A stretch of DNA of 64,000 nt from Egicoccus sp. AB-alg6-2 (GTDB lineage: Bacteria > Actinomycetota > Nitriliruptoria > Nitriliruptorales > Nitriliruptoraceae): NCBI RefSeq assembly GCF_041821025.1, contig NZ_JBGUAY010000001.1, positions 124,001-188,000 on the forward strand, given 5' to 3'. A model generated the notes under the pieces. That model saw only the letters and a list, made by a program, of their open reading frames with translations. It was not told the origin of the DNA and searched no databases. Of the stretch, positions 23,086 through 24,035 are shown in pieces; the stretch's first letter is position 1; each line of letters opens with the position of its first letter. The position numbers and the translations under genes are program-made.

Positions 23086-23520
23086 TCAGCTGGTCATCCA
23101 GTCGGGCTTTCCCCCCTTGGTGGCCCAGAAGATGTCCGCGATCTGGTCGATCTTTGCCAGCAGGTCGGCGCCGGCCTGCGGGTCCATGGTCTTCTTCGCG
23201 TCGCCGGCGGCCTTGGTGGCCTCCCAGAACAGCTGGTGCAGCTGGGGATACTCCTCGACGTGGTTGGGCTTGAAATAGTCCGTCCACAGCACCCACAGGT
23301 GGTGCTTCACGAGGTCGGCGCGCTCCTCCTTGATGAGCACGCAGCGCTGCCGGAAGACCTCGTCGTCGGAGTCCTGGTACTTCTTGGCGATCTCATGGAC
23401 CGATTCGGCCTCGATGCGCGCCTGCGCCGGGTTGTACACGCCGCACATCAGATCGCAGTGGGCGTCGACCGTCCGCAGGTCGCGGACGGGGTTGAGTGCA
23501 TGGAGCAACGTCGTCAGCAT
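23086..23520 (-). CDS. sodN: nickel superoxide dismutase precursor
   Basis: A 144-residue Ni-SOD precursor. Cleavage before His21 would expose the nickel hook HCDLMCGVY; ligands His1, Cys2 and Cys6 and the second-sphere Tyr9 of the mature protein are present. Position 5 of the hook, Pro in the canonical HCDLPCG, is Met here. The rest of the four-helix hexamer subunit is typical (KKYQDSDDEVFRQRCV, then HLWVLWTDYFKP). It removes superoxide in the cytoplasm or after export. The ATG at 23520 has AGGAG seven bases upstream. Its maturation peptidase is encoded divergently 104 bp away. Confidence 0.95.
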   Translation of the reverse strand: MLTTLLHALNPVRDLRTVDAHCDLMCGVYNPAQARIEAESVHEIAKKYQDSDDEVFRQRCVLIKEERADLVKHHLWVLWTDYFKPNHVEEYPQLHQLFWEATKAAGDAKKTMDPQAGADLLAKIDQIADIFWATKGGKPDWMTS

Positions 23521-23624
23521 GCGGGCTCCTGGCGTCGGGTCGGGGTTGACGTGTCGGTGTGCAGCAGCGTAGTCCTGTGTCCTGCCGGCCCGTGCCGGCG
23601 ATCGAGACGGACGGACGAGGCAAC

Positions 23625-24035
23625 ATGGCCGCCAAACGCCCCACAACGCCACAATTGCGACTCTTTCGCAACAGGCCGACGGCGGCCGCCACCATCGTGG
23701 CCACCGCCACCTACCTCGCGGTCCTGGCCGCGAACCGGTCCGTCCTGGTCGTGCGTGGGCCCTCCATGCTGCCGGCGCTGTGGCCGGGTGATCGCGTCGT
23801 CACCCTGCCCGCCCTCGCTCCGGTCCGTCCCGGACACGTGGTCGTCGTCCGCGATCCCGACGAGCGCGGCCACCTCGTCGTGAAGCGGGTCCACGCGGTG
23901 GAGGCCGGCGGCGTCGACGTCCGTGGTGACCACCCCCGTGCCTCGACCGACAGCCGGACCTGGGGGCCACTGCCACGCTCGGCCGTGCGCCGGCGCGTCG
24001 TCCGGCGGTGGCCCGATCTGCGCACGCGTCTGTGA
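23625..24035 (+). CDS. sodX: Ni-SOD maturation protease, S26 signal-peptidase type
   Basis: A 137-residue S26 peptidase that should cut the 20-residue propeptide of SodN to free the nickel-binding His1. Residues 19-36 form one membrane helix; S47 (GPSMLPALWPGD) and K87 (VKRVHA) are the catalytic pair. The ATG at 23625 has GAGG five bases upstream. Codons 4-17 have unusually low GC at the third position and contain a perfect palindrome, so the start could instead lie further downstream (for example GTG at 23697). Pairing with sodN supports the function. Confidence 0.88.
   Translation: MAAKRPTTPQLRLFRNRPTAAATIVATATYLAVLAANRSVLVVRGPSMLPALWPGDRVVTLPALAPVRPGHVVVVRDPDERGHLVVKRVHAVEAGGVDVRGDHPRASTDSRTWGPLPRSAVRRRVVRRWPDLRTRL
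23655..23671. promoter_or_regulatory. Nur-box-like palindrome TTGCGA-N5-TCGCAA
   Basis: A perfect 6+5+6 inverted repeat lies just inside the annotated start of sodX, 135 bp from the sodN start. Its layout matches the published Nur (nickel Fur) box TTGCaa-N5-ttGCAA of Streptomyces. The surrounding codons are unusually AT-rich for this genome. Recognition by a Nur protein is inferred; no fur-family gene lies in this window. Confidence 0.55.

Follow-up and report, generated by a model that had tools for sequence, protein, structure and literature searches.

The nickel superoxide dismutase (NiSOD) gene of Egicoccus sp. AB-alg6-2, sodN, and the maturation protease gene sodX lie divergently in the window, the 64,000-nucleotide stretch of DNA that was analysed, with 104 bp between them (sodN start at 23520, minus strand). 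Both genes score above the curated cut-offs of their NCBIfam models. The sodX start was taken as the ATG at 23625, as read from the sequence, and is putative. The features of importance are as follows.

Positions 23625 to 24035, plus strand: sodX, nickel-SOD maturation protease, 136 aa (TIGR02754, 72.2 bits with a cut-off of 63.25; Peptidase_S26)
Positions 23086 to 23520, minus strand: sodN, nickel superoxide dismutase, 144 aa (TIGR02753, 150.5 bits; PF09055, 147.7 bits)
Positions 23566 to 23571, minus strand: putative sodN -10 element TACGCT; TAnnnT occurs at the same place in the family loci compared
Positions 23655 to 23671, no strand assigned: predicted Nur-like operator TTGCGA-N5-TCGCAA, at sodX codons 11-16
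Positions 257141-257497 of contig C1 in the same genome (G000), outside the window: L002, candidate Nur-like Fur-family regulator

At 23655-23671 the sequence reads TTGCGACTCTTTCGCAA; this perfect 6-N5-6 palindrome (referred to below as the box) is in frame with sodX and covers codons 11-16. An earlier, sequence-only reading of this locus had reported this palindrome, had likened it to a Nur box and had remarked on AT-rich third codon positions around it. All three points were confirmed: the palindrome can be read directly from the sequence; both the TTGC/GCAA ends and the N5 spacer of the Nur-box consensus are kept, with differences at the lower-case positions 5 and 13; and A or T occupies the third position in 6 of 11 sodX codons from 4 to 14 versus 15 of 126 elsewhere in the gene. 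Across the 3.74-Mb genome, TTGCGACTCTTTCGCAA has a single perfect copy, and further copies, which the same reading had thought worth seeking, were found at three places with one mismatch each, giving four places versus two for a reversed control pattern. A relaxed pattern, TGCRA-N5-TYGCA, occurs at five genome places versus eight for its control, and a genome-wide excess is therefore not claimed.

Nickel SOD is present in 65 of the 101 genomes searched, and all 65 loci were retrieved. The scan took in the 300 bp preceding sodN at 64 of them, including 27 of the 28 loci from the family Nitriliruptoraceae; the omitted locus (L039 in G018) was too short, its contig ending before the intergenic region. 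The scoring matrix was derived from 22 boxes of metal-uptake genes and contained no sod site, and significance was determined by 300 shuffles per locus with a threshold of p ≤ 0.01. The sodX start sites that were assumed are guesses. A strong box was present at 15 of the 27 family loci (score at least 13.5, p 0.003-0.007), spread over eight genera, and the family scores were bimodal, the lowest match scoring 13.5 and the next locus 5.7. The sequence-only reading had made its case depend on such conservation in relatives, and because the palindrome is conserved there, it counts as more than chance. The peptides encoded by the box vary (e.g. LRLFRN, TANSLQ, DANDSH and VANRSQ), or the box precedes sodX altogether; therefore selection acts on the DNA, as had been suspected from the third positions.

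Outside the family, p ≤ 0.01 was also reached at 9 of 37 scanned loci. In seven class relatives, comprising six of these nine loci plus L069 (p 0.013), the box lies 18-21 bp from the sodN start, in the leader immediately ahead of the Shine-Dalgarno sequence. The class loci L010, L013 and L014 were excluded as instances of the family site, their box-like codons falling in the conserved end of a SodX helix; they may be real. In a second set, 79 of whose 80 loci could be scanned, every score of at least 12 (11 loci) fell in records labelled Nitriliruptoraceae, Nitriliruptorales or Salsipaludibacter, and for this reason the sod box looks like a trait of that lineage. One named relative with a box is Salsipaludibacter albus AS10 (L174). 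It is not universal in the family: 12 of the 27 loci have no box, though relatives of the regulator are widespread, and two genomes (G008 and G020) have no sod box yet carry one at cbiM.

The same box is found at metal-uptake genes. A search of 35 genomes detected the nickel/cobalt importer gene cbiM in 14, and 12 of these have a box with at most two mismatches, 33-102 bp upstream of the first conserved codon. Egicoccus sp. AB-alg6-2 is among the 12; its cbiM box is TTGCGAGATATTCGCAG, beginning 45 bp upstream of that codon. The two genomes with cbiM and no box are G014, in which no sodN was found and the single Fur protein is Zur-like, and G036, which has two divergent Fur proteins. In five family genomes (G002, G003, G010, G012 and G018), where cbiM was not found in the search of 35 genomes, a box stands in a metal ABC operon at the gene for the ZnuA-type substrate-binding protein (Pfam ZnuA), and G003 and G018 have a further box at the ATPase gene. 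These boxed ABC transporters (L143, L238, L145, L149 and L241) are candidate nickel importers. G010 also carries a perfect box at each of two genes for NikA-like substrate-binding proteins (L239 and L155; scores below the NCBIfam cut-offs). In the Egicoccus genome, a one-mismatch box precedes a FecCD permease gene (L247:1690, G000:C3:462689-462705). The best NCBIfam match of this permease is the F420-0 permease model, below cut-off, followed by BtuC, and the regulon may include this protein as another importer of a metal or cofactor.

Over 13 genomes there are ten perfect copies, nine of which are at sod or metal-uptake genes as judged by reading; with up to one mismatch there are 37 places versus 31 for the reversed control, no clear overall excess. 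One matrix member, L243 (G007), was included on gene order judged by eye, and the stretch after its box has no Pfam match. Another box, L240:1939 (G022), was kept out of the matrix; it precedes a gene for a small protein with a signal-peptide-like start, a His/Asp-rich stretch and no Pfam match. Eight further boxes (L141, L148, L152, L156, L242, L244, L245 and L246) with no recognised metal gene nearby were not counted in the regulon. Because the box at sodN-sodX also precedes nickel-uptake genes, superoxide defence appears, from these shared sites, to be wired directly to nickel sensing.

Three Fur proteins are encoded in the Egicoccus genome. The gene for L001 adjoins katG; that for L003, which is Zur-like, adjoins a metal ABC permease gene (neighbours recognised by eye); and L002 has S. 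coelicolor Nur (3eyy) as its top PDB match, with an E value of 5.8e-16. In six relatives a Fur gene lies directly upstream of the gene for this cbiM-type ECF nickel/cobalt importer, on the same strand, with a box either between the two genes or where the Fur gene ends, whereas here L002 and cbiM are unlinked, on separate contigs. In a tree of 59 Fur domains from the retrieved loci, a subset of the Fur matches found, L002 groups with the six cbiM-linked Fur proteins in a clade of 29 rows (support 100/98); S. coelicolor Nur comes out close to this clade with weak support.

The residues at His70, His72 and His126, which we take to be the Ni-site of S. coelicolor Nur, are V, R and E in L002, and no member of its clade has all three histidines together; the protein is therefore named Nur-like, not Nur. 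At His33, His86, His88 and His90, presumably the M-site of Nur, L002 has H, D, H and H. Across the clade, W-E-x-x-H ahead of the metal-binding HxH is kept and one M-site histidine varies, possibly marking an altered metal site. The Ni-site of Nur was itself described with a warning of a possible crystal artefact (PMC7055735). Thus, the search for Nur in this genome, which the sequence-only reading had proposed, succeeded in part: the best PDB match of L002 is indeed S. coelicolor Nur, but the Ni-site histidines are absent. Neither of the two outcomes that would have refuted that reading, a genome with no Nur homologue or relatives lacking the palindrome, was observed, and its Nur-box interpretation is largely upheld. 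One genome, G006 (88% complete), has a sod box and yielded no member of the L002 clade, which speaks against the regulator assignment, unless the assembly lacks the gene. Nevertheless, given that the box is shared with cbiM and other importers and that the cbiM-linked Fur genes form a clade that includes L002, the box very probably serves a Nur-like Fur-family regulator as its operator. We infer, in addition, binding by L002, nickel as the metal and the sign of the regulation.

The position of the box relative to promoters bears on this sign. A TAnnnT lies within 8 nt of 21 of the 23 uptake boxes, a placement that, as far as predicted promoters can tell, is the geometry of a repressor. For the 15 sod boxes, the corresponding counts are zero in the sodX sense and two in the sodN sense. 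At the Egicoccus locus, the box centre is 92 bp upstream of the putative sodN -10 (TACGCT), and a recognisable -35 is absent; the family's sodN promoters likewise combine a clear -10 with the lack of a good -35. The distances from box to sodN -10 fall at 46-47, 81-82, 92, 96, 102-104 and 164-166 bp. These are phased near 10.5 bp with p=0.023 (10 values), or 0.0033 without the 46 class, and with p 0.084 when one value per genus is taken and 0.068 when the period is searched; since the choices in this test were made after the data were seen, helical phasing of the box with the sodN -10 is suggestive only. Overall, of the two actions that the sequence-only reading had offered, activation of sodN or a limiting of the protease, this geometry leans towards the one on sodN. 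Direct activation of sodN by the metal-bound regulator is accordingly proposed with reserve, its chances being slightly short of even. For the seven class relatives with a leader box before the sodN Shine-Dalgarno sequence, repression of sodN would suit the arrangement better than activation. In 7 of the 27 family loci, in the region corresponding to 23545-23575 of the window, an exact TTGAC occurs 18-19 bp before a TAG that overlaps the sodN -10; this would make a promoter directed at sodX, an arrangement resembling an overlapping two-way promoter common to sodX and sodN.

The main rival, to which we give a minor though real share of the probability, keeps the same operator and regulator and reverses the sign: the metal-bound form would act as a roadblock in the transcribed leader or first codons and so repress sodX, together with sodN in the class relatives. 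Nickel shortage would then raise importers and NiSOD maturation together, the reverse of the Streptomyces logic, though sensible where NiSOD is the only SOD found. In most family loci the box does lie around the start of sodX, and in L034, L052 and L055 immediately before a Shine-Dalgarno-like GGAG; the leader boxes of the seven class relatives point the same way, and all other targets of the box look repressed. However, none of the 15 loci has a -10 in the sodX sense touching the box; the position relative to sodX varies widely, the box of genus g5 lying well inside the gene; and a lowering of NiSOD maturation when nickel is plentiful contradicts the known output. Rather less likely is a regulator that responds not to nickel but to iron, manganese, cobalt or peroxide, and that governs NiSOD and metal import jointly. 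ZnuA-type transporters, which carry zinc or manganese in other bacteria, are among the targets, and the H, D, H, H of the L002 M-site together with the missing H70, H72 and H126 would fit such a signal; but the targets also include cbiM, NikA-like genes and the NiSOD locus, and L002 is distinct from its katG-linked and zinc-type Fur paralogues.

Two further readings are very unlikely. The palindrome could be a chance product of sodX codons, seeing that perfect 6-N5-6 palindromes of any sequence occur at 62 places in the window, which makes the layout by itself common, and that the box-like codons of L010, L013 and L014 in the SodX helix end may be coincidence. Yet the probability of obtaining a perfect box from the peptide LRLFRN under local codon usage is only about 6.5e-5, and neither the bimodal scores, with 15 of 27 family loci boxed, nor the differing peptides and partly non-coding placements suit an accident of coding; as far as sequence can do so, these data refute the chance reading. 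Almost as improbable is translational control by an RNA hairpin in the leader of sodX or sodN. The box is self-complementary and adjoins Shine-Dalgarno sequences in some loci, but its letters are conserved, not pairing alone, and at uptake genes its place, upstream of the -10 or right behind it, is incompatible with a hairpin transcribed as a whole.

We return to the reading that we prefer, a Nur-like operator shared with nickel-type importers together with direct activation of sodN, and give it a probability of roughly 0.58. In this proposal, L002 would control the nickel-type importers through the same operator, the metal-bound regulator sitting on the core promoter of the importer genes and repressing them. 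The sod box, by contrast, would serve the sodN promoter from upstream and merely happen to fall in the first sodX codons; from there the metal-bound regulator may activate sodN directly, as Streptomyces Zur does at zitB. Nickel would thus lead to more NiSOD, the known output, in a lineage without a detected Fe-SOD and hence without the s-SodF small RNA.

In S. coelicolor, this output is described as indirect: nickel-bound Nur represses sodF, and the s-SodF RNA acts against sodN mRNA, so that sodN is raised; in the same account Nur does not bind to sodN (PMC3919588). The Nur box given there is the 17-bp tTGCaa-N5-ttGCAA. The present box resembles that of the Nur regulon described there (sodF, nikABCDE) in its 17-bp 6-N5-6 form, its TTGC...GCAA ends, its occurrence at nickel-type importers and its link to a SOD gene, and differs in that positions 5 and 13 are mostly G/C (TTGCGA-N5-TCGCAA) and in that it lies within the sodN-sodX region itself. 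The regulator differs too, as L002 lacks H70, H72 and H126 of the Ni-site, and so do the SODs found. The search for Fe/Mn-SOD (PF02777) gave no match in any of the 35 genomes, with 12 of 14 control genomes giving one; Cu/Zn-SOD was detected in four of the 35, Egicoccus sp. AB-alg6-2 not being one of them. Because no Fe/Mn-SOD was found in these 35 genomes, the Streptomyces sodF/small-RNA route cannot operate here, and the direct route is the simplest way to the same output.

A precedent for such a dual role is Zur, described as an actinobacterial Fur-family import repressor able to activate from upstream: at zitB of S. coelicolor, its box lies 8 nt upstream of the -35, with a footprint from -78 to -40 (PMC5472717). 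What we propose is alike in that a Fur-family import repressor would activate another gene from an upstream box. Unlike the zitB case as described, which involves zinc and a 7-1-7 box, the box here mostly lies at a greater distance (46-166 bp upstream of the -10), in many cases within a divergent coding sequence. Our search, which covered listings of the open-access literature, showed no report of a Nur box at sodN or sodX.

A more far-reaching idea, which we put forward tentatively and at well under even odds, is that in the Nitriliruptorales, for which no Fe-SOD was found, NiSOD came under the direct control of a Nur-like Fur protein whose metal site had changed. The operator would have settled at differing places in the divergent sodN-sodX region, often in sodX codons, and the indirect small-RNA switch of Streptomyces would have become one of direct activation. 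In cbiM-less genomes, this box would also identify a ZnuA-type ABC transporter as a nickel importer. If true, these results would mean: that metal-responsive control of superoxide dismutase was rewired when the alternative enzyme was missing; that NiSOD has a direct site of Nur-type control, as opposed to the purely indirect control in the model organism; and that the regulon, defined by the box together with the regulator clade, predicts nickel importers of unexpected families.
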